Origin: a virus
Length of the DNA: 25,335 nucleotides
Reading direction: 5' to 3' (one strand)
IMG/VR virus record: IMGVR_UViG_3300021389_000142
Coordinates: 1-25,335 of that record
Under the pieces are notes generated by a model. The model was given only the letters and a program-made list of their open reading frames with translations. It did not search any database and was not told where the DNA came from. This document shows, in pieces, positions 2,820-25,335 of the stretch (its first letter is position 1; each line of letters opens with the position of its first letter). The translations under genes were made by a program, and so were the position numbers.

Positions 2820-2836
2820 CAACACAAAAGTATATC

Positions 2837-2865
2837 TTGACACGAAACTTATTTTCTGTTATAAT
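2837..2865 (+). promoter_or_regulatory. Consensus sigma-70 promoter with extended -10
   Basis: TTGACA at 2837-2842 and TATAAT at 2860-2865 are separated by exactly 17 bp. A TG at 2857-2858 gives the extended -10 form (TGnTATAAT). It lies in the 66-bp gap before the glutaredoxin gene. A GGAGAAG ribosome binding site (2877-2883) follows, and the ATG is 20 nt after the -10 box, so the leader would be about 14 nt. It should let host RNA polymerase drive the nucleotide-metabolism run. Confidence 0.85.
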
Positions 2866-2885
2866 ATATATCTTATGGAGAAGAA

Positions 2886-3113: not shown

Positions 3114-3594
3114 TAGCAGACAAAAAGGAAACAACGCAGAACTTAAAGTAGCAGAGATGCTTCATAGAATAACAGGAGAAGCTTTTACACAGACTCCTGG
3201 CAGTGGTAGTGGTAAAATAAAAGGGGACTTAATGATTCCTCATAAAGATAATAAGTTTACCATAGAAGTTAAATTCTATAGAGATATGGCATTTAATCAC
3301 AAAATATTTACTCAAAAGAGTAATACCTTTGTAGGGTGGTGGAATAAATTAGTAATACAGGCTGAACAAATGAATCAAGAGCCTTTACTTATATTCAAAG
3401 AGAATCACTCACAATGGTACGTGGCAACGACAAGAAAGCCATGTTACAAAAAACATATGTATATTAATTGGCTAGGGTGCTATGTTACCTTTGCTGAGAA
3501 ATTTTTCGAAACACAAAACTTGGAATTTACAAATGGCGATACAATTTATGAACCATGGAAAAGCGACCCCGAACGGGAATTTACTGATTGTTGA
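3106..3594 (+). CDS. PD-(D/E)XK nuclease, Holliday-junction-resolvase-like
   Basis: This 162-aa protein has the PD-(D/E)XK layout in its first third. An N-terminal GxxAE helix carries E12, a GKIKGD loop ends in D41, and a beta strand reads IEVK with E54 and K56. The residue order resembles small resolvase or VRR-type phage nucleases, so it may cut branched recombination or replication intermediates. Its position between gp46/47 and a flap exonuclease fits that role, but substrate preference cannot be read from sequence. The C-terminal half is Trp- and aromatic-rich and not recognised. The start is TTG with a good upstream GGAG, overlapping the glutaredoxin stop. The 3' end overlaps the next gene by about 60 bp. 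Confidence 0.75.
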   Translation: MVNSRQKGNNAELKVAEMLHRITGEAFTQTPGSGSGKIKGDLMIPHKDNKFTIEVKFYRDMAFNHKIFTQKSNTFVGWWNKLVIQAEQMNQEPLLIFKENHSQWYVATTRKPCYKKHMYINWLGCYVTFAEKFFETQNLEFTNGDTIYEPWKSDPEREFTDC

Positions 3595-4384
3595 TGGACT
3601 CAATCTAGCTTTTCGATGGAAACACCAAGGGACTACAGACTTCGAGCATGAATATGTTCGTACAGTGCAGTCTCTTGCAAAGTCCTATAACTGTGGAGAG
3701 ATAGTCGTATTAGGCGATGGCGGTAGTAACTATCGTAAAGAAATCTATCCAGAGTACAAAGCAAATCGTAAAGAACGATATGCAGAACAAACTGAAAAAG
3801 AAGCAAAAGAATTTGAAATGTTCTTAGCAGAATTTTCAACTACACTTAAAACTTTATCTCGTAAGGGTTATCTTACACTAAAGTATGCAGGTGTAGAGGC
3901 TGATGATATAGCCGCACTTATTACACAGAATCGAGAAGAATTAGGTCTTGATGAAATATGGATGGTGTCATCAGATAGAGACTGGGATTTACTAGTCGAT
4001 GGTAACATTAGTAGATTTTCTACAGTTACCAGAAAAGAAACAACACTCCTAAACTGGGACGAGCATTATGACTTTGACCCTGAGTACTTTTTAACATATA
4101 AGTGCTTAACTGGAGATAAAGGAGATAATGTTCCTGGTGTTGATGGAATCGGGCCTAAGAGAGCCACACAGATTATACAACAGTATGGAGATATCTTTGA
4201 TATTATGGCGAGTTTGCCAATAGAAGGAAAGTACAAATTCATTCAGAACTTAAATGAGTTCGGAGAAGAAGGACTAGAGATTGGATTAAAACTCATGGAC
4301 TTAACTTATGACGTAGACGGAGCAGTCTTAGGTCATTCAAAAGAAATTATAGGATTAGTAGAAGATTATGTCAGTAAAAATTGA
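3533..4384 (+). CDS. 5'-3' exonuclease, FEN/T4 RNase H-like
   Basis: This is a flap-endonuclease-family nuclease. It shows LLIVDG with the first metal Asp, a YRKEIYPEYKANR basic arch segment, VEADDIA near residues 122-128, the SSDRDWDLL metal motif near 145, and GDKGDNVPGVDGIGPKRA, the helix-three-turn-helix DNA-binding element, near 193-212. In T4 and T7 such enzymes remove RNA primers and degrade DNA from 5' ends. The frame is open from 3482, but the family core begins at LLIVDG. The likely starts are ATG 3533, which has TGGAA 7 nt upstream, or ATG 3548; the first is chosen with modest confidence. It overlaps the upstream nuclease by about 60 bp and NrdA by 17 bp. Confidence 0.9.
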   Translation: MAIQFMNHGKATPNGNLLIVDGLNLAFRWKHQGTTDFEHEYVRTVQSLAKSYNCGEIVVLGDGGSNYRKEIYPEYKANRKERYAEQTEKEAKEFEMFLAEFSTTLKTLSRKGYLTLKYAGVEADDIAALITQNREELGLDEIWMVSSDRDWDLLVDGNISRFSTVTRKETTLLNWDEHYDFDPEYFLTYKCLTGDKGDNVPGVDGIGPKRATQIIQQYGDIFDIMASLPIEGKYKFIQNLNEFGEEGLEIGLKLMDLTYDVDGAVLGHSKEIIGLVEDYVSKN

Positions 4385-6140
4385 TTTTAGTAAAGATACC
4401 CTTTTAGATAGTTTTGCATTAGCAACTCTAAAAGATAGATATATGGTAGGTGATGAGACTTCACCTCAAGAAGCTTTTGCTCGTGCTGCAGTTGCTTTTG
4501 CAGATGATGATGACCATGCACAAAGACTATACGATTATGTAAGTAAGTTGTGGTTTATGTTTGCAACTCCTGTATTATCAAATGGAGGTACTCGCAGAGG
4601 GTTACCTATTAGTTGTTTTTTAAATCATGTAGATGATAGTAGAGAAGGAATAACAGACCATTTTGTAGAAAATGCGTTCTTAAGTTCTTTTGGAGGAGGT
4701 ATTGGAGGAAACTGGAGTGACGTTAGATCTATGGGAAGTAAAACTTCTAAAGGCTCTGAGTCTACTGGTGTAATACCTTTTATAAAAGTTGTAGATGCTG
4801 AAATGTTGGCGTTTAGCCAAGGAGTAACTAGACGGGGTAGTTACGCTGGATATCTACATATTTCCCACCCCGAAATAGAGGAGTTCTTAGATGTTAGAAA
4901 ACCTACTGGCGGTGACACGAACCGCAAGTGTACTAATCTTCACCACGGGATCGTTATATCTGATGCTTTCATGGAGCTTATACACTCCGCTTCAAAGTAT
5001 CCTGATTTCGATGACAGTTGGAATTTGGTTGACCCTCACTCACAAGAAATAAAGAAAACTGTTTCTGCAAGAGCTTTGTGGGTAAAGATATTACAAAACA
5101 GAATAGAAACAGGAGAACCTTATGTAATGTATGAAGATGCAGTTCAAAATGGGTTGCCTGAGTTTCAAAAGAAAAAAGGATTAAAAGTACATCATTCCAA
5201 TTTATGTAGTGAAATTACTCTTGCAACAGACGAAGAGAGAACAGCAGTATGTTGTCTTTCTAGTGTAAATTTAGAGTACTATGATGAGTGGAAAAATCAT
5301 CCCTCATTCATCCCCGACTTGATTAGGATGCTAGATAATGTATTAACTTACTTTATTGAAAATGCACCTAGTCAACTAGATAAAGCTAAGTTCAGTGCTT
5401 ACAGGGAGAGAAGTATTGGGCTTGGTGCAATGGGGTTTCATGCGTACCTGCAAAAGAATAGTATTCCTTTTGAAAGTGCTATGGCAGGTGGCACTAATTT
5501 AGAAATGTTTGCGTTCATAAAAAGACACGCAGACAATGAAACTAGAAAACTTGCAGCAGAAAGAGGTGCTTGTCCAGATGACGATTCTTGCACAGTAAGA
5601 AATGCTCATCTATTGGCAATCGCTCCTAACGCTAGTTCTAGTATTATTTGTGGAAACACAAGTCCAAGTATTGAACCATATAGAGCCAATGCTTATACAC
5701 AAAAAACAAAAACAGGAAGTAACTTAGTAAAAAATAAATTCTTAGATGCAATCATCAAAGAAAAAGTTACTCCAGAACTGTATGAAGAAACATGGTCAAG
5801 TATAGTTGCGAACAAAGGAAGTGTTCAACACTTAGATATACTAGATGAATGGGAGAAAGATGTATTCAAAACAGCAGTTGAAATCAATCAGGCATGGGTA
5901 GTGGAACACGCTTCAGTTAGACAAGAATTTATTTGTCAGTCTCAAAGTGTAAATCTATTCTTCCCACCTGATGTAAATAAAGGGGATTTGCATAATGTTC
6001 ACATGTTAGCATGGGCAAAGAACTTAAAAACATTATATTACCTAAGAAGTGAAGCTATTGGTCGTGCCGATAATGTATCTTCTTTGGCTAAAAGAGAGAT
6101 AATTTTTGAACAATCAGATTGTCTAAGTTGCGAGGGATAA
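4368..6140 (+). CDS. nrdA: Ribonucleoside-diphosphate reductase, large subunit (class I alpha)
   Basis: This 590-aa protein reduces ribonucleotides to deoxyribonucleotides with NrdB. Visible catalytic residues are C83 (LPISCFLN), the N278-x-C280-x-E282 thiyl-radical loop (NLCSEI), C295 (AVCCLSSVNL), the radical-transfer pair Y557-Y558 (LYYLR) and a C-terminal CLSC pair (C585, C588) that shuttles electrons from glutaredoxin. It is much shorter than E. coli NrdA (about 760 aa). The N-terminus begins close to the catalytic barrel, so the ATP-cone allosteric domain is missing and overall dATP shut-off is probably absent. It overlaps the exonuclease by 17 bp and abuts nrdB exactly. Confidence 0.96.
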   Translation: MSVKIDFSKDTLLDSFALATLKDRYMVGDETSPQEAFARAAVAFADDDDHAQRLYDYVSKLWFMFATPVLSNGGTRRGLPISCFLNHVDDSREGITDHFVENAFLSSFGGGIGGNWSDVRSMGSKTSKGSESTGVIPFIKVVDAEMLAFSQGVTRRGSYAGYLHISHPEIEEFLDVRKPTGGDTNRKCTNLHHGIVISDAFMELIHSASKYPDFDDSWNLVDPHSQEIKKTVSARALWVKILQNRIETGEPYVMYEDAVQNGLPEFQKKKGLKVHHSNLCSEITLATDEERTAVCCLSSVNLEYYDEWKNHPSFIPDLIRMLDNVLTYFIENAPSQLDKAKFSAYRERSIGLGAMGFHAYLQKNSIPFESAMAGGTNLEMFAFIKRHADNETRKLAAERGACPDDDSCTVRNAHLLAIAPNASSSIICGNTSPSIEPYRANAYTQKTKTGSNLVKNKFLDAIIKEKVTPELYEETWSSIVANKGSVQHLDILDEWEKDVFKTAVEINQAWVVEHASVRQEFICQSQSVNLFFPPDVNKGDLHNVHMLAWAKNLKTLYYLRSEAIGRADNVSSLAKREIIFEQSDCLSCEG

Positions 6141-7103
6141 ATGAGCAAACTATTAGAAGAAAGAGACTATTATAAACCTTTTGATTATCCTTGGGCATTT
6201 GAGTTTTACAAAAAACAACAACAAATGCATTGGTTACCTGAAGAGGTACCACTCCAAGATGATATTAAAGATTATAACGTAAAACTATCAGAAGGCGAAA
6301 GAAAACTTATAGATAACATATTTAAGTTTTTTACACAAGCCGATGTAGATGTATGTTGTGGATATGCAAAGCATTATCTTCCAACATTTAAAGTACCAGA
6401 AATAAGAATGATGCTAGTAAGTTATGCTGCTATGGAAGCAGTACACCAAGAAGCGTATTCTTTATTACTGGAGACATTAGGAAAATCAGATGACCAATAT
6501 ACAGAGTTTTTTGAAATACAAGCTATGGCAGAAAAGCATGAGTATTTAACTGATTTTAATATGTCAAACGCCCACGAGATTGCAAAAACAATGGCAGTCT
6601 ACAGTGGGTTTACAGAAGGAGTACAACTATTTAGTAGTTTTGCTATACTTCTAAACTATCCTAGACATAACCTTATGAAAGGTATGGGGCAGATAGTAAC
6701 ATGGTCTATAAGAGATGAGTCACTTCACGTTGAAGGATTATCAAAACTCTTTAGGGCTTTTATTGCAGAAAATCCAGAAATATGGACAGATAAACTGAAA
6801 TACGAGATATATTGCGCAGCTGAACGCGTTGTTGAACTAGAAGATAAATTTATAGATGTTTGTTTTGATAAAGCAGACATTCCTGATTTAACAGCGAAAG
6901 AAGTAAAAGAATATATCAGATATATTGCAGATAGAAGATTATTAGGTCTAGGAATGAAAAACATATTCCATAGCACCACTAATCCACTGCCTTGGATTGA
7001 TATGCAAGTAAATGCAGTTGAGCATACCAACTTTTTTGAAAACCGTGCTACCGAGTATGCTAAGGCAAGTACACAAGGAAACTGGCAGGATATATTTAAA
7101 TGA
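6141..7103 (+). CDS. nrdB: Ribonucleoside-diphosphate reductase, small subunit (class I beta)
   Basis: This is a 320-aa ferritin-like radical-generating subunit. All six metal ligands can be placed with the spacing of E. coli NrdB: D68, E99, H102, E159, E193 and H196. The radical tyrosine is present at Y106, four residues after H102, so this is a tyrosyl-radical enzyme and not the Phe-bearing class Ic type. W31 in QQQMHW matches the conserved Trp near the N-terminus. The ATG directly follows the nrdA stop (TAAATG), suggesting coupled, roughly equal expression. Its own stop overlaps the next start as ATGA. Confidence 0.96.
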   Translation: MSKLLEERDYYKPFDYPWAFEFYKKQQQMHWLPEEVPLQDDIKDYNVKLSEGERKLIDNIFKFFTQADVDVCCGYAKHYLPTFKVPEIRMMLVSYAAMEAVHQEAYSLLLETLGKSDDQYTEFFEIQAMAEKHEYLTDFNMSNAHEIAKTMAVYSGFTEGVQLFSSFAILLNYPRHNLMKGMGQIVTWSIRDESLHVEGLSKLFRAFIAENPEIWTDKLKYEIYCAAERVVELEDKFIDVCFDKADIPDLTAKEVKEYIRYIADRRLLGLGMKNIFHSTTNPLPWIDMQVNAVEHTNFFENRATEYAKASTQGNWQDIFK

Positions 7104-11812: not shown

Positions 11813-14800
11813 TTAGTTTTCCGACCACTGGCTACCATCCCAGAAGGACGCATTAAATGCTTCTGCACTGGATACTTCTGTATCAAATATTGTTCCAGCT
11901 GCTGATGCGGTAATTCTTTCAAACACTTGCGTAGACGTATCAAAGGTTGTTGTAGTTGTAGGAGTTGTCGTCCTAGTTGTATCTGATAATCTACTTGTTT
12001 GTATAGTTGTTGTTGTTGTTAGACCTGTTGCAAATACAGTAGTTCTAGTCGTATTAAATACTGTGCTTGTAGCAAATACTGTTGTTCTTGATGTATCTGT
12101 AGTTCTTGATGTATCAAAGGTAGAAGTAGTACTTCTGCTTGATCCAGTGGCTCTACTTGTAAGAGTCGCTAATGTTGTATTAAACGTAGATACTGTATTT
12201 TGTGAAGTAACCGTTCCTCTACTTGTGAGAGATGCTCTAGAAGTCGCAAAAGTAGAAACTGTATCTCTGACTGTAACTGTACCTCTAGTTGTTTCTGATA
12301 ATCTACTAGTGTTAAATGTAGAGATTGTATCTTTTGAAGTAAGTGTACTTTTACTTGTTCCTGTTGCAGTACTAGTGTCAAAAGTAGTTGTAGTACTTTT
12401 ACTTGTTCCAGTACTTCTAGTTGTAAGAGTTCCTTGACTAGTAGCATAGGTTGTTGTTGTTGCTCTACTTGTAAGAGTCGCTAGTGTTGTATCAGTTGCT
12501 TTACTTGTATTGAATATTGTAGTTGTATTTTTACTAGTTTCTGTAGCTCTTGTTGTATCAGATAGTTTGGAAGTATTAAATGTTGTGTCTGTTGCTCTAC
12601 TTGTTCCTGTTGCTCTCGTTGTATCAGATAGTCTAGTAGTATTAAATGTTGTAGTTGTACCTCTGTCTGTAATAGTTGCTAATGTTGTATTAAATACTGT
12701 AGTTGTTGTTCTACTCGTGCCGGTAGCCCTAGAAGATAATCTTGAAGTCTGATACGCTGTTGTAAATTCTGTAGTTCTACTTGTATTAGTAGTTTGAGTA
12801 GTAGTATAACTTGTTGATTGTGATGTACTACTTGTTCTACTTGTATTTGTTGAGAAGCTAGTATTATACGTAGTTGATTGTGATGTACTACTTGTTCTAC
12901 TAGTGTTTGTTGATCGAATAGTATTATAACTCGTTGCTTGAGAAGTATTAGTGCTTCTTGCAGTATTTGATAATCTAACTGTATTATAACTTGTTGATTG
13001 TGATGTACTACTTGTTCTACTTGTATTCGTACTTCTAATTGTATTATAACTAGTTGAAATACTTGTTGTTGTACTTACAGAAGTATTTGTATTCCTTGTA
13101 GTAGCAAATGAAGTGTTATTTGTAAATGCTGTTACTCTACTTGTATTTGTGCTTCTTGTAGTAGCAAATGATGTGTTGTCTACATATGCTGTTAGTCTAC
13201 TTGTATTTGTGCTTCTTGTAGTAGCAAATGAAGTGTTGTCTACATATGTTGTTATTCTTGCTGTATTTGTGTTATATGTAGTACTTCTTGTAGTATTATC
13301 TGTATACTCCGTTGTTCTTGCTGTATTTGTGTTTCTAGTAGTAGCTTGAGAAGTATTGTCTACATATGCTGTTAGTCTACTTGTATTTGTAGAATTTGTA
13401 AATCCTGTATTTCTAGCGGTATTTGTAGCAAATGATGTATTTCTACTTGTGTTTGTAGAATTTGTAAACCCTGTAGAGTTAGTAAATCCTGTACTTCTAC
13501 TTGTGTTTGTACCTCTTGCGGTATTTGTAGCAAATGATGTATTTCTACTTGTGTTTGTACCAAAAGATGTAGAGTTAGTAAATCCTGTATTATCTGAATA
13601 CTCCGTTAACCTTGCAGTATTCGTAGCAAATGATGTATTTCTACTTGTGTTTGTAGAGTTTGTAAATGATGTAGAATTTGTAAACCCTGTATTTCTACTT
13701 GTATTTGTAGCATTTGTAAATGATGTAGAGTTAGTAAATCCTGTACTTCTAGTTGTTCCATATGAAGTACCTCTACTTGTATTTGTGCTTCTTGTAGTAT
13801 TATTTGAATACTCGTATGCTGTTATAGTGTTGACGTAAAAAGCGACCTCCTGGCCGCTACTGAAGAAAGTATAATTAAAGTAGTTATAAGTAAATGCTGT
13901 AGTTGTTGACTGTGACGCTGGCCCTCCAGTTACGTAGGTAGTATTTACTGCAGCTAGTGCTGTATTTCTAGAAGTGTTATATGCTGTGTTTCTTGCTGTA
14001 TTTGTGTTTCTTGATGTAGCGGTATTATCTGAATACTCTGTTAATCTTGCAGTATTTGTATTTCTAGCTGTGTTAGTATTTGCTGCAAACTCTGTTAATC
14101 TACTTGTATTATTTGTAAATCCTGTATTTCTACTTGTGTTTGTACCTCTTGATGTAGCAGTGTTTCTTGTAGTATTTACACCAAACTCTGTTAATCTACT
14201 TGTATTATTTGTAAATCCTGTATTGTCTGTGTATGCTGTTACTCTCGCTGTGTTCGTATTTCTGGCTGTGTTAGTATTTACTGCATACTCTGTTAATCTG
14301 GTTGTATTATTTGTAAATCCTGTGCTTCTAGCAGTATTTGTATTTACCGCTGCTAGTCCTGTATTTCTACTTGTGTTTGTAGCAAAAGCAGTATTGTACG
14401 AAGTACTATTTGTAAAGCCTGTACTTCTTGATGTATTCGTAGCAAATGATGTATTTCTTGTAGTACTATTTGTAAACCCAGTACTTCTACTTGTATTTGT
14501 AGATTGAGTTGTAGTATAAGAAGTATTTACTGCAGCTAGTGCTGTATTTCTAGAAGTATTTGTAGATTGAGTTGTAGTATAAGAAGTATTTACTGCAGCT
14601 AGTCCTGTGTTTCTTGATGTAGCGGTAGATTGAGTTGTATTGTAAGTTGTACTTGCTACAAAAGCAGTAACCGTAGCATGGTTAGTGTTTCTAGTAGTAG
14701 CAAATGAAGTATTATCTGTGTATGTTGTTGTTGTATCAAACGTTGTAGTTCTGCTAGTAGCAAAACTAGTATTATCTTGATATGCTGTTGTTGTAGCAAA

Positions 14801-15967
14801 TGTCGTTGTTCTACTTGTAGCAAAACTGGTGTTGTCTGCGTATGCTGTTGTTGTATCAAACGTTGTAGTTCTGCTTGTTGACTGAGATGTATTATCTGTG
14901 TATGCTGTTGTTGTATCAAACGTTGTAGTTCTGCTAGTAGCAAATGAAGTACTATTTGTAAATTCTGTTAACCTATTTGTTAATATAACGGTATCAAAGA
15001 ACGTTGTAAATGTAGTTGTTGTTTCGTATGCAGTCGTAGTACTTTTTGTAGTGTTAAACGTTGTAATAGTAGTAAAATCAGTTGTAGTCGTAAGTGTTGT
15101 ATTAAACGTTGTAGTTGTAGTAAAAGTTGTCGTGGTATTATATGCAGTAGTTGTACTTAGACTAGTTTCAAATACTGTTGTAGTTTCAAAGGTAGTAGTT
15201 GTATTAAAAGCTGTGGTTGTACTCTTACTTGTATTAAACGTTGTAGTTGTAGTAAAAGTTGTAGTAGTATTAAACTCAGTAGTAGTAGTAGTGTTGGTAT
15301 CAAACGTTGTAGTAGTAGCAAATGTAGTAGTTGTATTAAATGCCGTGACTGTACCTTGAGTAGTAGCATAAACTGTAGTTGTGTTAAATGCTGTAACAGT
15401 ACTGAAAACTGTTGTTGTTGCAATAGTAGTATTAAATGTTGTAGTTGTATTGAACGCAGTAGTAGTAGTAAAATCAGTAGTTGTAGTTGTATTTGTATTA
15501 AAGGTTGTAGTTGTGTTAAATTGCGTTGTAGTTGTAAAATCTGTAACAGTAGTAATTGTTGTATTAAACGTAGTGGTTGTGTTAAATGCTGTAGTAGTTG
15601 TGAATGCAGTTGTCGTATTTACTGTAGTTGCAAACACTGTAGTAGTTGCGAATGTAGTTACTAAATTAGTTTCTGTACTTCTTGATGTATTAAACTCTGT
15701 TGTTCTACTAGTATTGAAAGTTGTTGTTGTATTGTAGTTTGTATCAAAAGCAGTGGTAGTGTTAAATGTTGTGACAATGTCAGTTGTATTTGTTACGCTT
15801 GACGTTGCAGTATTTCTTGATGTTTCATGCACGGCAGAGAACGGCCCAGCTAAGTTACCGTTATCGTTTACATATACTTCATTGACCCTTCGTATTGTTC
15901 CGCTATCATTGATTGCAAGAAAGGATATCTGACGTAATGTGCCACTATCATTAACATATATTGCCAT
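11813..15967 (-). CDS. Giant Thr/Asn/Ser-rich repeat fibre protein
   Basis: This 1384-aa protein is built almost wholly of short Thr/Asn/Ser-rich repeats. Residues 1-42 are different: three YVND/INDSG-type copies (YVNDSGTLRQI, INDSGTIRRV, YVNDNGNL), likely the virion-attachment end. Residues 117-292 are eight exact 22-residue units of pattern TTTxFN + TTTTFN + ten residues. The middle (about 340-1070) uses 20- or 21-residue units rich in NTSRNT, FATNT and RLTEY. Residues 1118-1293 are eight more exact 22-residue units. The last 40 residues are non-repetitive and hold both Trp. A non-repeat island lies near residues 677-722. No Cys, and no Met after the first, were seen. Alternating T-x-T and aromatic positions suggest a beta-structured fibre. 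The position among tail-fibre genes supports a virion role; adhesin, spacer or shield are alternatives. Confidence 0.85.
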   Translation of the reverse strand: MAIYVNDSGTLRQISFLAINDSGTIRRVNEVYVNDNGNLAGPFSAVHETSRNTATSSVTNTTDIVTTFNTTTAFDTNYNTTTTFNTSRTTEFNTSRSTETNLVTTFATTTVFATTVNTTTAFTTTTAFNTTTTFNTTITTVTDFTTTTQFNTTTTFNTNTTTTTDFTTTTAFNTTTTFNTTIATTTVFSTVTAFNTTTVYATTQGTVTAFNTTTTFATTTTFDTNTTTTTEFNTTTTFTTTTTFNTSKSTTTAFNTTTTFETTTVFETSLSTTTAYNTTTTFTTTTTFNTTLTTTTDFTTITTFNTTKSTTTAYETTTTFTTFFDTVILTNRLTEFTNSTSFATSRTTTFDTTTAYTDNTSQSTSRTTTFDTTTAYADNTSFATSRTTTFATTTAYQDNTSFATSRTTTFDTTTTYTDNTSFATTRNTNHATVTAFVASTTYNTTQSTATSRNTGLAAVNTSYTTTQSTNTSRNTALAAVNTSYTTTQSTNTSRSTGFTNSTTRNTSFATNTSRSTGFTNSTSYNTAFATNTSRNTGLAAVNTNTARSTGFTNNTTRLTEYAVNTNTARNTNTARVTAYTDNTGFTNNTSRLTEFGVNTTRNTATSRGTNTSRNTGFTNNTSRLTEFAANTNTARNTNTARLTEYSDNTATSRNTNTARNTAYNTSRNTALAAVNTTYVTGGPASQSTTTAFTYNYFNYTFFSSGQEVAFYVNTITAYEYSNNTTRSTNTSRGTSYGTTRSTGFTNSTSFTNATNTSRNTGFTNSTSFTNSTNTSRNTSFATNTARLTEYSDNTGFTNSTSFGTNTSRNTSFATNTARGTNTSRSTGFTNSTGFTNSTNTSRNTSFATNTARNTGFTNSTNTSRLTAYVDNTSQATTRNTNTARTTEYTDNTTRSTTYNTNTARITTYVDNTSFATTRSTNTSRLTAYVDNTSFATTRSTNTSRVTAFTNNTSFATTRNTNTSVSTTTSISTSYNTIRSTNTSRTSSTSQSTSYNTVRLSNTARSTNTSQATSYNTIRSTNTSRTSSTSQSTTYNTSFSTNTSRTSSTSQSTSYTTTQTTNTSRTTEFTTAYQTSRLSSRATGTSRTTTTVFNTTLATITDRGTTTTFNTTRLSDTTRATGTSRATDTTFNTSKLSDTTRATETSKNTTTIFNTSKATDTTLATLTSRATTTTYATSQGTLTTRSTGTSKSTTTTFDTSTATGTSKSTLTSKDTISTFNTSRLSETTRGTVTVRDTVSTFATSRASLTSRGTVTSQNTVSTFNTTLATLTSRATGSSRSTTSTFDTSRTTDTSRTTVFATSTVFNTTRTTVFATGLTTTTTIQTSRLSDTTRTTTPTTTTTFDTSTQVFERITASAAGTIFDTEVSSAEAFNASFWDGSQWSEN
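12089..12616. repeat. Eight tandem 66-bp (22-residue) repeats, C-terminal zone of the giant fibre
   Basis: Read on the - strand these bases encode eight consecutive units of exactly 22 residues with no insertion or loss. The first unit parses as TSRATDTTFN, TSKLSD and a six-residue piece of TTRATE type. Thr and Ser positions and the single aromatic are kept, while codons differ between units. The repeats are thus strong at protein level and weak at DNA level. Confidence 0.85.
12781..13380. repeat. 60-bp (20-residue) repeat zone in the giant fibre
   Basis: DNA similarity recurs at 60-bp offsets across this stretch. An identical 28-base string occurs at 12813-12840, 12873-12900 and 12993-13020 (offsets of 60 and 120). 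Between 13141 and 13380 successive 60-base blocks share most positions. The encoded units are of NTSRLTAYVDN + TSFATTRST type. Confidence 0.8.
14701..14940. repeat. Four tandem 60-bp (20-residue) repeats in the giant fibre
   Basis: Four 60-base blocks align column by column. They encode units of the form SRTTTFDTTTAY + TDNTSQST or DNTSFAT. Just downstream in the protein (about 14470-14640) the unit changes to 21 residues with an AAVNTSYTTTQST core. Confidence 0.8.
15092..15619. repeat. Eight tandem 66-bp (22-residue) repeats, N-terminal zone of the giant fibre
   Basis: These bases encode residues 117-292 as eight in-register 22-residue units made of two six-residue pieces (TTTxFN type) and one ten-residue piece (for example TSKSTTTAFN). 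In one unit counted by eye, 12 of 22 residues are Thr. The 6+6+10 architecture is the same as in the C-terminal zone about 2.5 kb away. Confidence 0.82.
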
Positions 15968-16193: not shown

Positions 16194-19100
16194 TTATACC
16201 TCTATTGTTGTCCTGATAAATTTGAACGCCATACTATCTGTACTTGCTGGCGTTGCTCTTAATCTTATATTACCTGATACTAAGTCTGCATCAAATGCTG
16301 CTTGTGCTCCATTTTCAAATATAGATGCGTACTGTGTTAAGTATACATCTGTACCATCATGGAATAATAAAATTTCTATTGCTTGAAAATCTGTGTCTGT
16401 TGAATTATGTACTTGTACTAAGTACTTAGCAGTTCTAAATGTAGCGGCTGCAAAACTGTCTAGTGTAAATTGTGTTGTACTTGATGAAGTTCCTGTTCCT
16501 ACATCAAAACCTGCTACTTCATCTATGTGAAGTTTCTGTTGTGGTGCTGAATCTTGGATACCTAAGTTACCAACTACATTTGTTGTATCGGCACCATCTC
16601 CAAGTGTAACTGCTCCAGAGAATGTAATGTTCCCTGTCATGTTTTTACCACCAAGTGCTGCACTTGATAATTGTGTTGTTGTTACAGAATTATTTGCAAT
16701 CTCACTTGACCCAACAGCGTTTGCTGCTATCTTAGCTGATGTTACAGAGTTAGCTCCTAGTTTTGCATTTGTTACATTACTATTAGCAATCTTTGCCGTT
16801 GTTACTTGTGAAGTTCCAATATGAATAGTATCAATACTACCCGATACGAGTTCTGATGAATCTACTGAGTTTGCAGCTAGTTCTGATGAACCTACTTGTC
16901 CTGTTCCTATTTGTGTGCTAGTAATAGAACCGTCTGCTATCTTAGCTGCTGTTACACAGTTATCCGCTAATTCTGCTGTTCCTACAATACCGTTTTGGAT
17001 TATACCAGCCGTGACCGAGTTAAGTGCTATTTCGCTTGTTCCAACAGCATTACCAGCTATCTTTGCACTTGTTACTGAGTTTGCTCCAATATGTATAGTG
17101 TCTATTGAACCTGTTACTAGTTCTGCGCTATCTACTGAGTTACTTGCTAATTCTGTTGCTGTTATAGACCCTGCAACTATTTTTGACTGAGTTACTGAAT
17201 TATCTGCTAAATCTGCTGTTACAATACTACCGTTTACTATCTTTGATGAGTTTACAGAGTTTGCTGCTAGTTTACCTAGTGTTACTTGTGCGTCTGCAAT
17301 ATGTGCTGTATCAATACTGCCATCTACATAATGTTCTGAATCTATAGAATCATCTGCAATTTTTGTGCCATCTACTGCATCAGCGGCTAACTTTCCATTA
17401 GTAATTGCTAAAGCATCTATACGATTAGTAGTTACTTGCTGTGAGCCTATGTGTCTTGTTAAAACTGCACCTGATATAATTTTTGTTGCATTTATATTGT
17501 TATCTGCAATATTTGCTGTTAAGATTGTATTTGCTGCTATCTCAGCTGTTGTAATACTTCCTGCTACAATCTTACTTGCATTTACAGTATTGTCTGCTAT
17601 TGCACTTGCTGTTCCTGTTAAGTTACCTGTAACATTTCCTTCTACGTTTGCTACAAGTGTGCCTGTTGTATAGCCTGTTCCTTCTGTGTTTACTACTGTA
17701 GTCGGTACAGTCTGTAAATCTTTAAATATTTTCCATTTACCTGAGTCTCCAGCATCTCTGAAGAAACCTGTGTATTTGTCTGTGCCTGCTACATCATACA
17801 GTCCGTAAAAACCGATGTCAACTGTATCTGCTGAGCTGTTTGTTGTTGCTAGTGCAAGTAGTGGGTCTGCTACATTAATTGTTGTAGAAGATACTGTAGT
17901 TGTTGTTCCTGATACAGTTAAGTTTCCAGATAACACAACGTTACCTGAGAATGTTTGTCCACCTAGTGCATCTGATTTTAATTCACTTGCACTTACGCTG
18001 TTTGCTGCTATCTTTGTTGCGTCTATTGCATTGTCTTGTATTTTTGCAGTTGCTACTGAATTACCTGCTAATTGTGCTGTATTTATTAGACCATCTGTAA
18101 TATAATTTACACTATCAATAGCATTGTCTGCTATATGTCTTGATACTATTTGGTCTGTTGCAATTTTTCCTGAAGTAACATTGTTATCTGCTATTTTAGC
18201 TGTTGTTACTTGTAAGTTTCTAATGTGGGTAGTATCTATACTAGCAGAAATTAATTCTGATGAATCTACTGAGTTTGCGGCAAGTTCTGAAGCACCTACT
18301 GCTCCAGCTGCTATATGTGATGCATCGATAACATCTGTACCTATTTTACTTGCTGTTACAGAGTTAGTTGCTAGTTCGCTTGAAGCTACTTGTCCTGCTC
18401 CAATTTTTCCTGCAGTGACAGAGTTAGGGGCTAAATGTATTGCATCTATACTACCTGTAACTAATTCTGCTGAATCTACTGAGTTTGCTGCTATGTGTCT
18501 TGCAACTATACTGTCTGTAGCTATTTTTGTTCCGTTTATATTGTTGTCAGCAATGTTTGCTGTTAAAATTGTATTTGCAGCTATCTTACCACTTGTTATA
18601 GCAAGGTCTGCAATATCTGCTGTCGCGATTGTTCCATTGACTATTTTTGCTGAAGTGACAGAATTATCTCCGAGTTTGGCAGTTGTGACAGCTCCCGCGG
18701 CGATTTTTGCAGTAGTAACCTGTAAAGCTCCTATGTGTATCGTATCGATCGAGCCAGTAATTAATTCTGCACTGTCAACACTGTTTGCTCCAAGTTGAGT
18801 GCTAGTGATACTCCCATCAGCAATATGATGGGCAGTAATGTTGTTCGCAGCAATTTTTGCAGTTGTAACTGCATTTGCCGAAATGTGAATTGTGTCGATA
18901 CTACCAGTAGCAATTTCACTTGAGTCAATTGAATTTTCTGCTATTTCACTCGAGGTTACTGCATTTCCAGCTATCTTCGCAGAGGTAACTTGGCCTGTAC
19001 CTATATGTATAGTATCAATACTTCCTGATACTAATTCTGAACTGTCTACTGAGTTTGCAGCTAAGCCTGCGGCTGTTACCGAGTTATCTGCTACTGCAGT

Positions 19101-19277
19101 TACAGCTGTTGCTTGTAGTTCAGCTGCTCCGACAGAGTTTGTTGCTAATTCTGCAGCTGTTACAGAATTTAAAGCTAACTCAGAAGCTGTAATAGCATTA
19201 GCCGCAATCTTACTTGCAACTACACTATTATTACCTATTGAGTCTTGTTGTACTAAAAACTTACCTATTAATGGCAT
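16194..19277 (-). CDS. Tail fibre with ten-residue repeats
   Basis: This 1027-aa protein starts MPLIGKFLVQQDSIG. Two arrays of ten-residue units of the type NSVTSAKIAA / GSIDTIHIGT occupy residues about 17-437 and 560-872. Each array ends in an ALGG-x4-GN motif leading into a non-repeat domain. The first such domain (about 438-560) contains VADPLLALATTNSSADTVDIG and GFFRDAGDSGKWKIFKDL-type sequence familiar from marine phage fibres. The second is the C-terminal domain (about 873-1027, LHIDEVAGFDVGTG ... YLVQVHNSTDTDFQAIEIL). Ten-residue repeats of this kind probably form a beta-helical shaft. It lies between virion genes in the leftward fibre operon. Attachment site and receptor are unknown. 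Confidence 0.9.
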   Translation of the reverse strand: MPLIGKFLVQQDSIGNNSVVASKIAANAITASELALNSVTAAELATNSVGAAELQATAVTAVADNSVTAAGLAANSVDSSELVSGSIDTIHIGTGQVTSAKIAGNAVTSSEIAENSIDSSEIATGSIDTIHISANAVTTAKIAANNITAHHIADGSITSTQLGANSVDSAELITGSIDTIHIGALQVTTAKIAAGAVTTAKLGDNSVTSAKIVNGTIATADIADLAITSGKIAANTILTANIADNNINGTKIATDSIVARHIAANSVDSAELVTGSIDAIHLAPNSVTAGKIGAGQVASSELATNSVTASKIGTDVIDASHIAAGAVGASELAANSVDSSELISASIDTTHIRNLQVTTAKIADNNVTSGKIATDQIVSRHIADNAIDSVNYITDGLINTAQLAGNSVATAKIQDNAIDATKIAANSVSASELKSDALGGQTFSGNVVLSGNLTVSGTTTTVSSTTINVADPLLALATTNSSADTVDIGFYGLYDVAGTDKYTGFFRDAGDSGKWKIFKDLQTVPTTVVNTEGTGYTTGTLVANVEGNVTGNLTGTASAIADNTVNASKIVAGSITTAEIAANTILTANIADNNINATKIISGAVLTRHIGSQQVTTNRIDALAITNGKLAADAVDGTKIADDSIDSEHYVDGSIDTAHIADAQVTLGKLAANSVNSSKIVNGSIVTADLADNSVTQSKIVAGSITATELASNSVDSAELVTGSIDTIHIGANSVTSAKIAGNAVGTSEIALNSVTAGIIQNGIVGTAELADNCVTAAKIADGSITSTQIGTGQVGSSELAANSVDSSELVSGSIDTIHIGTSQVTTAKIANSNVTNAKLGANSVTSAKIAANAVGSSEIANNSVTTTQLSSAALGGKNMTGNITFSGAVTLGDGADTTNVVGNLGIQDSAPQQKLHIDEVAGFDVGTGTSSSTTQFTLDSFAAATFRTAKYLVQVHNSTDTDFQAIEILLFHDGTDVYLTQYASIFENGAQAAFDADLVSGNIRLRATPASTDSMAFKFIRTTIEV
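16662..17600. repeat. 30-bp (ten-residue) repeat array, second array of the 1027-aa fibre
   Basis: Encodes successive units of the form x-[SA]-[VI]-x-[ST]-[AS]-[KE]-[IL]-A-x. A larger block recurs: NSVDSSELVSG, then SIDTIHIG, then QVTTAKIA, as in the first array. Codons differ between copies. Confidence 0.85.
17967..19229. repeat. 30-bp (ten-residue) repeat array, first array of the 1027-aa fibre
   Basis: About forty ten-residue units run nearly without slippage over residues 17-437. The NSVDSSEL / SIDTIHIG / QVTTAKIA block appears several times, suggesting growth by duplication of multi-unit blocks. Confidence 0.85.
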
Positions 19278-21473: not shown

Positions 21474-21854
21474 TTAAAAGCCCCCTGCGTCTACCGTATC
21501 TGAGTCCGCTGATTCGTTCCCTATCATTATAGGCACAAATTCAAAGTTTCCGGTTGATGTTTCTCGGTAGATCTTTAACTGATTATCGTCAGTGTCATAA
21601 AATAAATCTCCTTCTGCCAGATTCGTTGTATCTGAAGAGGGAGCTGTTGTAGCAACATAAAATTGATTTGCTAAAAAGTTAAGAGCATCTTCTACATTGT
21701 CTGTACCCGTAAGGCTTCCTACAGGACTGGTGAAAGCAATAGTTGATGCTTCATTAGTTGTAGAAGCTACAGCAGAAGAGATTGTAAGAGTAGTAGTTGC
21801 AGACGTGGCAGTTATTGAGCTATTTTTAGGAGTTATAGTTACAGTTGTTGCCAT
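21474..21854 (-). CDS. Tail structural protein ending in a GGF motif
   Basis: This 126-aa protein is Thr/Ser-rich in its first third, then LTGTDNVEDALNFLANQFYV and a GDLFYDTDDNQLKIYRET segment, the pattern seen in phage tail proteins that present a short DxxxLKIY hairpin. The C-terminus DTVDAGGF resembles the IDGGTF end of the next fibre. Its start shares one base with the stop of the 112-aa gene (TAATG), so translation is coupled. The function is inferred only from context. Confidence 0.7.
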   Translation of the reverse strand: MATTVTITPKNSSITATSATTTLTISSAVASTTNEASTIAFTSPVGSLTGTDNVEDALNFLANQFYVATTAPSSDTTNLAEGDLFYDTDDNQLKIYRETSTGNFEFVPIMIGNESADSDTVDAGGF

Positions 21855-22192
21855 TATCTTGTTACATTTGGCGTAACTCTTGCTACGCCCTCGATTACTC
21901 TAGTAATACTATTTGCTGAAGTATTATGTATTTCTAAATCATAATAATATTTACCTGCTGCAATATTTGCTGTAACTGCATAACCTAGGTTCATAGTTAA
22001 TTTTCCTTGGGTTGGTGCCGATACTGGGCAAGTAAAAGTTGCTGTAAGAGTATTTGATGTAGGGGAAGGACGCAACTGTGCTGATGCGCTATGGTTAGAT
22101 AAATTAATTGGTGCTCCATCTTCGGCGAGCGCAATTTCAAGGGCGAAATCCGCTCCCTGGTCAATAACTATATCATATTTTCCTGCTGCCAT
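21854..22192 (-). CDS. BppU-N-like baseplate/tail protein
   Basis: This 112-aa protein opens AAGKYDIVIDQGADFALEI, then INLSNHSASAQLRPSPTS and IAAGKYYYDLEIHNT, ending RVIEGVARVTPNVTR. This order (an ID-Q-G-x-x-F strand, an xxAxxQLR strand, a Y-x-Y-DLE strand and a VTPxVTR end) is the pattern of the N-terminal domain of phage baseplate upper proteins and of many stand-alone tail proteins. It is the first gene after a consensus promoter, with GGAG at 22199-22202. It probably helps dock the fibres at the baseplate. Confidence 0.75.
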   Translation of the reverse strand: MAAGKYDIVIDQGADFALEIALAEDGAPINLSNHSASAQLRPSPTSNTLTATFTCPVSAPTQGKLTMNLGYAVTANIAAGKYYYDLEIHNTSANSITRVIEGVARVTPNVTR

Positions 22193-22270: not shown

Positions 22271-22456
22271 CTACGAGTTCGGGAATTTGTCTTTAACAGC
22301 TTTCCTAGCTAAATAAAATTGTCCAGTTTTTGCTGTATCGCCAAACTTACCAGAATCAATATCGTGGTATAGTTTATCTAGTTGTTCTTTTAGTTGTGTG
22401 TAATAGTTTGCCCTTTTTTGTGCAGGTGTGTCACCTTTGCTTAAATTTATATTCAT
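22271..22456 (-). CDS. Small XkdW-like protein
   Basis: This 61-aa protein carries QLKEQLDKLYHDIDSGKFGD and AKTGQFYLARKAVKDKFP. The YxxxxDQLDxLWHDID-type motif is characteristic of small XkdW-family proteins placed next to tail-fibre genes in many phages. Their role is unknown, possibly in fibre assembly. Its start overlaps the upstream stop (ATGA). It is the last gene before the internal promoter. Confidence 0.7.
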   Translation of the reverse strand: MNINLSKGDTPAQKRANYYTQLKEQLDKLYHDIDSGKFGDTAKTGQFYLARKAVKDKFPNS

Positions 22457-22872
22457 TGTCCATACCTCTTTACTGTTATTGTTGTTCCACTATGTGATTT
22501 ATAGTGAAGTTTTTTAAATTTTATTACGTACTGTCCTGGTTCTTGAACTGTGAGTGTTAAAGTAGTATCTGTCATAATTCCTATAGAGTCGCCATCTTTA
22601 AATACTTCTGTACCTACTGGAACTCCTGTTACATTAACTACTTCATCAATAGCAGGATTTGTTGTTGAAAACACACAGTTAAATACACTTTTTTCGACTA
22701 AGGCAGTTGCGTCACTGTTTAGATAAAAATCACCATCAGGTAAATTATCTGAATCCAATGCAACGTGACTGTGTCCTAAATCTGTTTGTGCACTTATTAT
22801 TGTGTCATTTATTAGTCCTGTAGTAGACCACACTATTTCTTTATTACTATTGTAAAATATGTTATATATCAT
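22453..22872 (-). CDS. Tail protein, unassigned (139 aa)
   Basis: The start is set at ATG 22872. GGAGAAAG lies a few bases upstream and the ATG overlaps the preceding stop as ATGA; an in-frame ATG at 22923 has no such support. The protein begins MIYNIFYNSNKEIVWST. Its C-terminal third (VTGVPVGTEVFKDGDSIG, then TDTTLTLTVQEPGQYVIKF) looks like a small PEGA-like beta domain. This arrangement, followed by an XkdW-like gene, is common in phage tail regions. The function is unknown. Confidence 0.7.
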   Translation of the reverse strand: MIYNIFYNSNKEIVWSTTGLINDTIISAQTDLGHSHVALDSDNLPDGDFYLNSDATALVEKSVFNCVFSTTNPAIDEVVNVTGVPVGTEVFKDGDSIGIMTDTTLTLTVQEPGQYVIKFKKLHYKSHSGTTITVKRYGQ

Positions 22873-23486
22873 AAACTTTCTCCGTTTAAAAAATTTTCTG
22901 CTGTAAATATTACGCAACTCCAAAAATAACGAGCATTTGTAAGAACTGACCCAGCTGTCATATTTCCGTTTGAGTCAGGGTTATAATCATCATCATGACT
23001 TTGACTTACGTTATTCTTTAATACTATTGTATTGTTTGTTGTACTACTTATTACTAATCCGCTAAAACCTGCAATACCTGGGAATGTCACTTCGTCCCCT
23101 TCTTCTTCTCCTTCTTCTGTTCTTTCACTTTGCTCTATACCATAGGAAAAAGGAGGGTAAGTCTCAGTTGCTAAACCACTACTAATTTGATTGTAAGTGC
23201 ACCATCGAACAGCAAAACAAGGTACATATCCTAAGTTATGAGTAATTGTAGCTGTATGTTGATTATAGGTTACTCCATTATAAGAAAAACTAACTTGTGT
23301 TCCTGAAGTGGTAACTAAATCTGGAACTAGTATTCCTTGTGATGCTGAATGTACAATAAGACTTTCTGCGGCTCTTGAATCAAATCCCAAAGGTTGAGTA
23401 GAAGTTAATACATCTTGACCGTTTCTAGAAACAAATAATCCGTGATCTGTGCTTCCTCTTTTTCCTAATAGTACTCGATTTGCCAT
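22869..23486 (-). CDS. MANR-family tail protein, copy 3
   Basis: This 205-aa protein has the N-terminus MANRVLLGKRGSTDHGLFVS, then RNGQDVLT and LGFDSRA, shared with the two upstream genes. The middle has ATITHNLGYVPCFAVRW, a HNLGYxP segment often seen in phage virion proteins, then an acidic run (ERTEEGEEEGDE). The C-terminus is ARYFWSCVIFTAENFLNG. The start shares one base with the preceding stop (TAATG). The shared N-terminus suggests a common docking site with variable outer parts. Confidence 0.75.
   Translation of the reverse strand: MANRVLLGKRGSTDHGLFVSRNGQDVLTSTQPLGFDSRAAESLIVHSASQGILVPDLVTTSGTQVSFSYNGVTYNQHTATITHNLGYVPCFAVRWCTYNQISSGLATETYPPFSYGIEQSERTEEGEEEGDEVTFPGIAGFSGLVISSTTNNTIVLKNNVSQSHDDDYNPDSNGNMTAGSVLTNARYFWSCVIFTAENFLNGESL
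22877..22884 (-). promoter_or_regulatory. Ribosome binding site that fixes the start of the 139-aa gene
   Basis: GGAGAAAG on the - strand lies 4 nt before ATG 22872 (the GGAG core is 8 nt away). It decides for this start over the in-frame ATG 51 bases upstream, which falls inside the preceding gene. Confidence 0.6.
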
Positions 23487-23968
23487 TAGAATAACGCCAA
23501 GTTTGAGTATCTAGGTACTACAAAAGATTTTACACTTACAGAAGCAGTTCCTGTGTTTTCTATTGTTATTGTACTCAAGGACTCACTTATACTAAAATCA
23601 TAGCTTAATGCACTAGAAGTAGAACTGTACGCTGTGGGAGCCAAAAGTCCAAAACCTATAAAACCAAAATCAATTCCAAAATCTATACTACTTAGGTCTA
23701 AAGTCGCTGTATTTCCTGCGGTAACAGTAGAAGTAGAAGTAGTAGTAGTTCCTCCGCCTACTACAGGTATAGGAGCGAGTTGGTACATAGATATTATTCT
23801 TGCTAAACTTGTTCCTGTGCCATTATCAGTGTTAAAAATTAATTCGTCTGCAGTACAAGTAGTTACATCTTTTCCGGGTCTTGATATGTAAAGTCCAAAT
23901 CCTGGAGTACCTGAACTATGTCCATGATTACTATTTATATTTTTTCCTAATATTATTCTATTTGCCAT
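23486..23968 (-). CDS. MANR-family tail protein, copy 2
   Basis: This 160-aa protein begins MANRIILGKNINSNHG, then FGLYISRPGKDVTT and ELIFNT, matching its neighbours. ATG 23968 is chosen over an in-frame ATG 45 bases upstream because the family N-terminus begins here and it lies just after the preceding stop. An insertion (HGHSSGTPG) separates the two halves of the shared motif. The rest is Ser/Thr/Gly-rich with an IDFGIDFGFIGFG strand and lacks the LGYVP segment of the other two. Confidence 0.75.
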   Translation of the reverse strand: MANRIILGKNINSNHGHSSGTPGFGLYISRPGKDVTTCTADELIFNTDNGTGTSLARIISMYQLAPIPVVGGGTTTTSTSTVTAGNTATLDLSSIDFGIDFGFIGFGLLAPTAYSSTSSALSYDFSISESLSTITIENTGTASVSVKSFVVPRYSNLALF

Positions 23969-23970
23969 AA

Positions 23971-24870
23971 TTACGTTCCAAAGTAAGTACTTGTCATATA
24001 CCCATAAGCACAAGGTATTCTTAAAACAAAGAAACTTGCATTAATCATTTCTGTTTCTTGTTGAATATCTGCATTGTTATAAGTGTAGTCTCTTCCTATA
24101 CGAGCAGGATTACCAACATCAGTACCATTTGATGAGGAACTGGTTGGTGTATCAGCTGAGGCTTCTATTGGGTACATATGAGTAGAAGTTGTTTTAAATA
24201 AACTCAGTCTATTTACAGATTCATATATTTCTTCTTCGGGGTCTTCTCCTTCATATCCTCCTCCATGTTGTTCCGATAAAACTATTAAAGGTACATACCC
24301 TAAACCTGGTTTGCCTGAAGCAGTTAAATAATTAACTCCAGCAGAAGATAATTCTGGATAATCATAAGTTCCTCCTGCTATTCCTACGAATGTTTCTAAA
24401 GAATTTGATGCGGGATAAGTTATTACCATATCAGAACCTGTTTTTTCTAGTGCTAATCTATGGTCGGTTGAACTCAAGGTGCTTCTATAAGCTGTGACTC
24501 CTGTTATACTTGCAGCAATAATATCTGCTTTCATGTTATCTACAGTAGTAAAAGTAACTCCAAAACTTGTTGTTGTCGTTGACAAAGTTACAGTAGTGCC
24601 GTCAATAATAATTTTTTTGCCTGTTAGATTTACTGGATTTACAAATGCAGTACCAAATCTATTAACTGAACCTCTTACATATGCTTCTTGGTCGCTAGAA
24701 TAGTCTACAAAATTTAAACCTGCGCCTCCTGCATATATTTGCCCTGTTCTATTTTTTGTAGAGTCAAAGAGCATATCTTTATCTGCTCCAGTAGTAACAT
24801 CAGTACCTGCTCTAGATACTTTGAGTCCAAAAGTACTTCCTATATCTCCTAATAATATTCGATTTGCCAT
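23971..24870 (-). CDS. MANR-family tail protein, copy 1
   Basis: This 299-aa protein has N-terminus MANRILLGDIGSTFGLKVS, then RAGTDVTT and DMLFDSTKNRTGQIY. It is the longest of three adjacent relatives. A central part has KIIIDGTTVTLSTTTTSFG and VDNMKADIIAASI; later GLGYVPLIVLSEQ is followed by an acidic run (GEDPEEEIYE), the same order as in copy 3. It ends YMTSTYFGT. Its ATG shares one base with the stop of the partial upstream gene. Family resemblance to phage tail proteins is clear from the N-terminus; the function is unknown. Confidence 0.77.
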   Translation of the reverse strand: MANRILLGDIGSTFGLKVSRAGTDVTTGADKDMLFDSTKNRTGQIYAGGAGLNFVDYSSDQEAYVRGSVNRFGTAFVNPVNLTGKKIIIDGTTVTLSTTTTSFGVTFTTVDNMKADIIAASITGVTAYRSTLSSTDHRLALEKTGSDMVITYPASNSLETFVGIAGGTYDYPELSSAGVNYLTASGKPGLGYVPLIVLSEQHGGGYEGEDPEEEIYESVNRLSLFKTTSTHMYPIEASADTPTSSSSNGTDVGNPARIGRDYTYNNADIQQETEMINASFFVLRIPCAYGYMTSTYFGT

Positions 24871-25335
24871 TAGTCTGTAATTAAAATTCTCCCGTTTGTT
24901 CCATCTATTGTTATATTTCCTACTACTATACTTCCGCCAGAAGCAACACTCATACTTGACGTTACGTTTCCTGATGAATTTATAGCAGTACCATTATGTG
25001 TTGCTTTTCGTACACTTGCTACATTTATGCCATTTGAATCTGATGTTATTTGAGCATCAGCTGCTGTTAGTGTTATGTCGTTATTTGAGCCATTGTTTAA
25101 TCTTAAAGTTCCTGTACTTGGTCTACTAAAACTAATACTAGTGTTTCTAACTGTAGTAGGGGTTCTAGCAATAGCTATTGTGCCTGCTGATATGTTACTG
25201 GCGTTAGTAGCATCAGTATTGGGTACGTTACCTAGTCCTACATTATCTTTAGTGGTCTTATCATTTCTTATAGCAATACCATCTCCAGTAATACCAGTTA
25301 TAACACCTGTTGTACCATCAATTGCTATAGTAGAG
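24870..25335 (-). CDS. Tail fibre protein, C-terminal part (runs off the right edge)
   Basis: One frame is open on the - strand from the right edge to TAA at 24872-24870, giving 154 residues. It contains IAIDGTTGVITGITG, then KDNVGLGNVPNTDATNAS, the KxxVGLGNVxNT motif of many phage fibres, and further on SFSRPSTGTLRLNNGSNNDI and an end of ITIDGTNGRILITD. The 5' end lies outside the window. Its stop overlaps the first MANR gene (TAATG), so it belongs to the same leftward operon. Confidence 0.8.
   Translation of the reverse strand, partial: STIAIDGTTGVITGITGDGIAIRNDKTTKDNVGLGNVPNTDATNASNISAGTIAIARTPTTVRNTSISFSRPSTGTLRLNNGSNNDITLTAADAQITSDSNGINVASVRKATHNGTAINSSGNVTSSMSVASGGSIVVGNITIDGTNGRILITD

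Follow-up and report, generated by a model that had tools for sequence, protein, structure and literature searches.

Three paralogous genes beside a gpJ-type spike gene as the probable subunits of a heterotrimeric phage tail tip

Why would a tail locus carry, directly beside the gene of its central spike, three successive genes whose products begin alike and then differ? The question is raised by a linear IMG/VR virus record of 25,335 bases (IMGVR_UViG_3300021389_000142, analysed over its whole length and hereafter called the window), in which three open reading frames (ORFs) of 299, 160 and 205 amino acids (aa) adjoin directly on the minus strand according to its ORF listing. A sequence-only reading had described them as adjacent tail proteins with a common docking N-terminus and swapped outer domains, serving either several binding specificities or a heteromeric collar. 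The comparisons reported here suggest that the three genes rather probably encode the subunits of one obligate 1:1:1 heterotrimer, which would cap the C-terminal end of the trimeric gpJ spike. This heterotrimer is favoured because of the count of three, the conserved order of the copies, their fusions, the distribution of one strand between neighbouring genes, the trimeric central fibre, and precedents in other systems. L and G numbers (for example L022 and G027) are labels of the compared loci or contigs and genomes.

The common N-terminus is readily confirmed. Pairwise identity between the paralogues amounts to 49-56% within residues 1-46 and falls to 20-31% beyond residue 46, with z scores against 200 shuffles of 9.6-10.9 and -0.4 to 3.1, respectively. 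The first 49 aa of the position 3 protein match the other two within the record (E 6.5e-6 and 8.4e-4), and profile-profile comparison of the window families aligns 42, 58 and 39 columns, all of them N-terminal. The shared segment ends at about residue 45, has a loop insertion inside it in copy 2, and corresponds in a profile search to the consensus M.NR[VIL][LIV]LG..GL.[VI]S[KR].G.[DN]V. The seed profile for this docking module itself includes window and Rhizobium sequences; an independent link is provided by the window position 3 family, which aligns with the Rhizobium profile over 75 columns (hhalign 98%), as far as LGY.P. The LGYVP motif and later acidic run noted earlier in copies 1 and 3 are also present. 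The duplication of a docking segment in adjacent tail proteins is supported. In four other loci (L086, L087, L095 and L096), copy 1 carries a long insertion between the docking-module strands (MANRVVIGK...NEYGLQVS in L086), as if the putative hairpin loop tolerated inserts. The features of the window locus are as follows.

24870..25334, minus strand: 3' end of a gpJ-like central tail-tip gene (154 aa, the rest cut off by the contig end), C-terminus ...ITIDGTNGRILITD
23971..24870, minus strand: position 1 protein, 299 aa
24733..24870, minus strand: position 1 N-terminal docking module, residues 1-46
24337..24684, minus strand: position 1 inserted domain, approximately residues 63-178, boundaries approximate, absent from the L022 orthologue
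23974..24315, minus strand: position 1 outer domain, residues 186-299, from LGYVP, as aligned with the insert-free L022 orthologue
23486..23968, minus strand: position 2 protein, 160 aa, starting 2 nucleotides (nt) past the position 1 stop codon
23804..23968, minus strand: position 2 N-terminal docking module, its two strands separated by a loop insertion
22869..23486, minus strand: position 3 protein, 205 aa, in TAATG overlap with the position 2 stop codon
23349..23486, minus strand: position 3 N-terminal docking module, residues 1-46
22872..23261, minus strand: position 3 outer domain, residues 76-205, TITHNLGYVP...NGESL
22453..22872, minus strand: next gene (MIYNIFYNSN...), in ATGA overlap with the position 3 gene

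The stop codon of the gpJ-like ORF overlaps the start of the position 1 gene as TAATG, giving junctions of TAATG, 2 nt, TAATG and ATGA in order along the locus. For position 2, the ATG at 23968 was taken as the start; the ORF listing has an upstream TTG start.

How constant is the number of copies? Of the 142 loci in which the family occurs, an iterated profile showed exactly three modules in 137, two in 3 and one in 2, and never more. Pieces of the window (L001, L002 and L023-L025) were left out before the count, and the gpJ-only stretches L030-L033, which have no module, are outside the 142. Because many loci overlap on the same contigs, the fairer numbers are 95 distinct triplets, defined by the first 45 residues of each copy, and 46 clusters at 50% identity. 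The deficits in L112, L114 and L116 occur where the loci run off contig ends. L141 and L142 come from near-identical contigs, and their copies read identically over the compared stretch; both have two modules at the locus, and the whole L141 record has three, the missing one lying within a frame of 1751 aa. Among the 137, copy 3 of L109 is shortened to 22 aa by the contig end, and the weakest third copies, in L138 and L139, reach E 0.01. Profile searches of whole records found exactly three modules in 14 of 14 records, in 15 of 20 in a second set, and in both of two further contigs with a short spike gene. The exceptions in the second set are G023 with two (and a weak third match at E 0.0016), the W03 and W04 phages with one copy each, and the bacterial genomes G027 and G030, with four matches each owing to a second site. 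The fourth match of G027 belongs to a second site of three genes (L155), partly called by eye, and that of G030 is a solitary module (L154 2026-2520, minus strand, counted on the reverse strand), which directly follows a tape-measure-like gene in a Pelagibacterium genome. The same genome has a complete trio elsewhere, and the solitary copy is possibly a prophage remnant.

A survey of the Hyphomicrobiales, the order of Mesorhizobium AR07, in which 16 candidates were scored in many genomes, gave matches at E 0.001 in at least 11 of 397 genomes. When the surroundings of these matches were searched again, 13 clusters were obtained, two of them already among the compared loci. In eight, the profile detects three modules (weakest E 0.013), three more reach this number through weak or by-eye modules (the second site of G027, G108 and G205), and two have one copy, namely G289, with a truncated ORF of 86 aa, and G030, beside the tape-measure-like gene. 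The Rhizobium phages and the Hyphomicrobiales genomes share the count of three.

Are the three positions equivalent? Using profiles built without the tested cluster, the order 1-2-3 was recovered in 37 of the 46 clusters, where chance would give 1 in 6. With stricter clusters at 40% identity, it was recovered in 21 of 29, and in 19 of 29 from the outer domains alone, against the same chance level. This recovery is above chance, and a single ancient triplication is therefore favoured, after which the positions would not have been interchangeable.

Whether the outer domains were swapped or slowly diverged can be addressed by comparing orthologues with paralogues. Between the window and L076, orthologues at positions 1, 2 and 3 are 49/54/52% identical over the first 46 residues and 40/25/34% over the remainder, as compared with 56/49/54% and 30/31/20% between the window's own paralogues. 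Because distant same-position orthologues show nearly the same contrast between N-terminus and remainder as paralogues do, slower N-terminal change would suffice and no breakpoint would be needed. Outside the window's group (50 triplets, here labelled "marine"; the window itself is apparently marine), hhalign relates the position 1 outer domain to the ones at position 2 (93%, 80 columns) and position 3 (91%, 77 columns); positions 2 and 3 match each other at 53% over 22 columns, and 15 reversed controls did not exceed 0.5%. Those position 1 orthologues of the window's group that have no insert align with position 1 of the relatives outside it (98%, 98 columns of the outer domain), and the position 3 outer domain of this group shares with the relatives only a short LGY.P-type motif of 16 columns (70% and 31%). 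For position 2 of the window's group, hhalign gave no match to the relatives' outer domains. These hhalign comparisons were limited to domains of 60-170 aa, a filter outside which the window's own position 1 protein falls. About 115 residues of that protein are missing from the L022 orthologue, and the L022 position 3 protein carries an insertion of its own; the visible modularity would thus consist of inserted domains rather than swaps. The sequence-only reading is accordingly upheld in part. The duplicated docking segment stands and a heteromeric assembly is the likeliest outcome, whereas the swapping of outer domains finds no support, given same-position orthologues with an equal contrast, a conserved order and outer domains that are homologous in relatives.

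The idea of three independent adhesins with different receptor specificities on a common anchor, as previously proposed, draws on the shared N-terminus and divergent remainder in the window and on the large inserts or extensions seen in single copies. It is nevertheless difficult to reconcile with touching genes, a conserved order, the equal contrast between orthologues and a near-constant three, the last of which also argues against an open-ended set of binding specificities, and we regard it as improbable. Docking modules can carry very large extensions, as in the L141 record of 107,022 bases, where the open frames containing the three copies measure 1751, 351 and 1080 aa. C-terminal extensions bring copy 3 to 552 aa in L137, a jumbo-sized record of 335,552 bases with exactly three modules, and to 570 aa in L040. 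None of 89 triplets has two copies of at least 250 aa. Chance, however, predicts only one or two such cases, and two frames of the L141 record exceed 1000 aa, so that no claim is made on a pattern of one large copy per trio.

Where on the virion would these proteins sit? The partial ORF upstream of the trio in the window shares its C-terminus with a long ORF in L003 and L005 (at least 1666 aa), and PF13550 (Phage-tail_3, the gpJ family) was detected in four of five related records tested. A lambda-like tail block followed by the trio occurs in four Rhizobium phages, RHEph10, RHph_Y2_11, RHph_N1_10 and RHph_Y1_11. The last three carry the annotations M, L, K, I and tail host specificity protein J on the genes that precede the trio; RHEph10 has other tail-protein names, the gene at the J place being annotated "tail protein". 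The trios of these phages belong to the same family as that of the window, with three modules right after the J gene, and consist of compact proteins (approximately 118-165 aa) annotated only as hypothetical proteins. When the 95 distinct triplets were examined, an ORF of at least 500 aa was found to end beside copy 1 in 80 of the 92 with an upstream ORF. The genes of the trio lie within 20 nt of each other at 88 of 89 and 85 of 89 junctions, a count made on 89 of the 95 distinct triplets, six with unusual first copies being left out. In seven loci (L020, L072, L075, L091, L104, L109 and L111), the ORF ending beside copy 1 is unlike gpJ, and two sequence types recur among these ORFs, in six of the seven loci.

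The place of the trio genes after gpJ points to the distal tip, rather than a collar, as the site of their products. A location elsewhere on the tail, in a heteromeric ring or collar, does have a parallel in the mycobacteriophage Mysterious, where, according to the part of the report available, a three-gene heterotrimer occurs in six copies around the baseplate, off the central fibre (PMC13252515). For the window and its relatives, such a location seems to us a poor prospect, as against it stand both the place of the trio after gpJ and four contigs in which the trio follows a short gene ending in a strand similar to the module's first half.

These four contigs and a series of fused genes bear on how the three proteins might be arranged. 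Copies 1 and 2 share one open frame in L044, L157 and L158, copies 2 and 3 do so in L160, L168 and L169, and in L162 all three modules apparently lie within one frame of 518 aa; the total stays three in the fused loci. The fused modules of L157 and L160 best match the profile of their own position, as do modules 1 and 2 of L162 (E 8e-7 and 6e-9). In L044 this holds only for the second module; the first has its highest score with the profile of position 3. Four contigs (L044, L136, L168 and L169) have before the trio a short ORF of 88-173 aa that closes with RVLLG, RILIG or RVLIG and a handful of further residues; their modules start at the second strand of the docking module. The docking profile (positions 4-43) matches the L168 record through a stop codon, with one TAG inside; read from the coordinates, this TAG is the end of the short gene running into copy 1. 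If the product of the short gene is a trimeric needle, it would supply one strand to each of the three modules ("needle" being a label used here for the short spike gene). Single-module forms also exist. In a TM7 phage the one module is split after the equivalent strand; in ctuNt529, an RMLLG strand and the module are parts of a single chain, and an adjacent gene is annotated phage stabilization protein. In the latter (L152 4700-5930), module and LGYVP segment are in different overlapping frames, which could reflect a frameshift or an assembly error, and a second weak module-like stretch (E 0.009) is present at the end of the first frame.

Trimeric fibres are commonly built from serial domains, and the main rival explanation is a serial stack, in which each protein forms its own homotrimer and three discs pile up below gpJ in a 3:3:3 arrangement. 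Besides the frequency of such fibres, the conserved gene order and the apparent triple-fused chain of L162 would be compatible with it. It leaves unexplained, however, why all three proteins bear the same docking module when each would dock on a different partner, and the module number, which a stack would be expected to vary, reached four or more in none of 142 loci. In addition, L136, L168, L169 and, except perhaps for its third protein, L044 have the RVLLG-type strand only in the short upstream gene, so that a stack would have three strands for nine modules. On these grounds, we consider the serial stack unlikely, although less so than the other rivals.

Under the favoured heterotrimer, the oligomeric state, the geometry of hairpin and docking, and the contact with the host are what we infer from the arrangement described above. 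The N-terminal module (MANRVLLG...GLxVSKPGxDV) is probably a two-stranded hairpin, each copy of which would continue one of the three gpJ chains; in phages with a trimeric short spike, the spike would supply one strand per module. The C-terminal domains would meet at the distal tip, probably contacting the host, and inserted domains would make single arms different. Such broken symmetry at the tip would let the phage put one unique arm or inserted domain on the three-fold axis. The ancestral state may have been a homotrimeric spike with its tip in the same chain or in a single-copy neighbour, from which the tip gene would have separated and been triplicated once, the copies then becoming non-interchangeable. 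A broader proposal, to which we give even weight for and against, is that this tail tip is widespread among gpJ-type siphophages and phages with a short needle-like spike in the form of an obligate heterotrimer, in which each of the three paralogues would pair with the strand of one spike chain to finish a beta-hairpin. Extant phages would then display its stages, from a single chain through split single and split three forms to re-fused pairs and an apparent triple.

Several observations weigh against the heterotrimer or the evidence brought for it. A serial stack of homotrimers would likewise give a fused triple chain, and the third module of the L162 frame scores poorly, reaching E 0.43 against the position 3 profile and E 2.5 against that of position 2. 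The third protein of L044 begins MANEVMF, followed by a long unrelated stretch, and may ambiguously keep the first strand. No needle family was matched by the short upstream genes of L044, L136 and L151, which gave one weak tail-fibre match (E 0.044). Lone copies exist (L154 and L159), and the modules of L155 and L163 were partly called by eye. The order fails in 8 of the 29 stricter clusters. For the window's own cluster, the N-termini yield the correct order only when the three are assigned jointly, and then narrowly (152.1 bits, with 150.8 for the runner-up order). Its position 3 protein scores higher with the position 1 model (49.5 bits) than with its own (41.6), and the order of the outer domains was not assigned correctly. 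Homology past residue 46 is weak in the window proteins, least for position 2, and within the window's group the matches of outer domains between positions are short or absent (hhalign 51% over 12 columns for positions 1 and 3, 0.3% for 1 and 2 and for 2 and 3). Finally, the monomer AlphaFold2 models are poor, with a predicted local distance difference test (pLDDT) score of 64 for position 3 and 58 for position 2.

Database searches placed the proteins in no described family. None of the three window proteins matched a Pfam family at E 1, and their best PHROGs match (E 0.18) was not usable; Rhizobium and L022 relatives likewise gave no usable Pfam or PHROG family, with a best PHROG for a trio member at E 0.02. 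In tblastn searches against named phages, the full position 1 and 3 proteins had no match at E 0.01, the position 2 protein matched two Rhizobium phages at E 10, and the 56-aa N-terminus of position 3 matched 23 records, with Rhizobium phages best (E 0.003); coliphages and others at E 3-10 in the latter search were taken as chance. Profile searches of the PDB yielded chance-level matches, the docking profile reaching E 0.22 at best. With the position 3 model, Foldseek gave no usable PDB match (best E 0.22); its hits in BFVD with E <0.001 were three viral proteins, uncharacterised or nameless, with lengths of 329, 190 and 162 aa; the models of positions 3 and 2 were considered too weak for a fold assignment. 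An H-type-lectin-like outer domain and a flagellin-IN-like insert were considered and dropped, as no search supported either.

Downstream of the trio, the product of the next gene (slightly shortened) weakly matches phrog_18216 (E 0.005), as does the protein encoded 3' of the trio in RHph_Y2_11 (E 2e-4); no such match was found 3' of the trio in RHph_Y1_11. The gene at this place in the Rhizobium phages is a possible counterpart of the window's next gene. The stretch 21854-22192 (minus strand), two genes past this neighbour, matches phrog_1084, of unknown function, and phrog_3304, annotated L-shaped tail fibre assembly. The minus strand also encodes a 1027-aa ORF (16194-19277) with many repeated matches to PHROG tail-fibre families, as well as matches to cyanophage, pelagiphage and Gordonia phage proteins, and a very long ORF of 1384 aa (11813-15967). 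On the opposite, plus strand, positions 62-7103 hold SbcD- and SbcC-like subunits, an exonuclease, and the large and small subunits of ribonucleotide reductase; among the matches listed, the best named relatives of the large subunit are mostly from Pelagibacter phages, at approximately 63-66% identity.

How does this trio compare with known systems? The accessible parts of two reports on solved tails describe gpJ and its T1 counterpart as trimers (PMC10721106, PMC11945409). One close likeness, by description, is the virophage DSLV2, whose proteins QIG59353-QIG59355 formed a 1:1:1 heterotrimer according to co-expression, native polyacrylamide gel electrophoresis and AlphaFold3; the portion of the report available also describes three consecutive tail genes with conserved relative positions and a homotrimeric phage counterpart (PMC12724248). 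DSLV2 differs in being a virophage, and its proteins were compared there with T4 gp37. The docking profile has no match in the whole genome of Synechococcus phage S-CAM7 (NC_031927); YP_009322593.1, cited in the same portion of PMC12724248, is not among the 75 S-CAM7 features listed, where numbering starts at YP_009322934. In Mysterious, the consecutively numbered beta-rich proteins gp35, gp36 and gp37 form one heterotrimer at a siphophage tail end, and gp35 is described as having an N-terminal arm and a beta-sandwich core; unlike the arrangement proposed here, its six heterotrimers surround the baseplate and are held by distal tail and hub proteins, not by the central fibre (PMC13252515, available part). 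Drexlerviridae and other small siphoviruses encode separate proteins just after gpJ, proposed to sit non-covalently on a gpJ-like tip, but these are described as allelic receptor-binding loci, and as an immunoglobulin-like homotrimer or a hand-like monomer, and the accessible parts of the two accounts mention no three-paralogue set (PMC8594841, PMC12309495). In the open-licence PubMed Central literature, no report of a gpJ-linked three-paralogue set was found. Three-gene heterotrimeric tail proteins are thus already known, and what was not encountered there is the trio linked to gpJ or a needle, with its shared module, near-constant three, and intermediate and re-fused forms. If the proposal is true, it explains genes annotated as hypothetical in Rhizobium phages, and its signature, three docking modules after a gpJ or short spike gene, would help to find tail tips, and candidates for contact with receptors, among phages from metagenomes. 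The trio would also offer a natural series for how a homotrimeric machine turns into an obligate heterotrimer.

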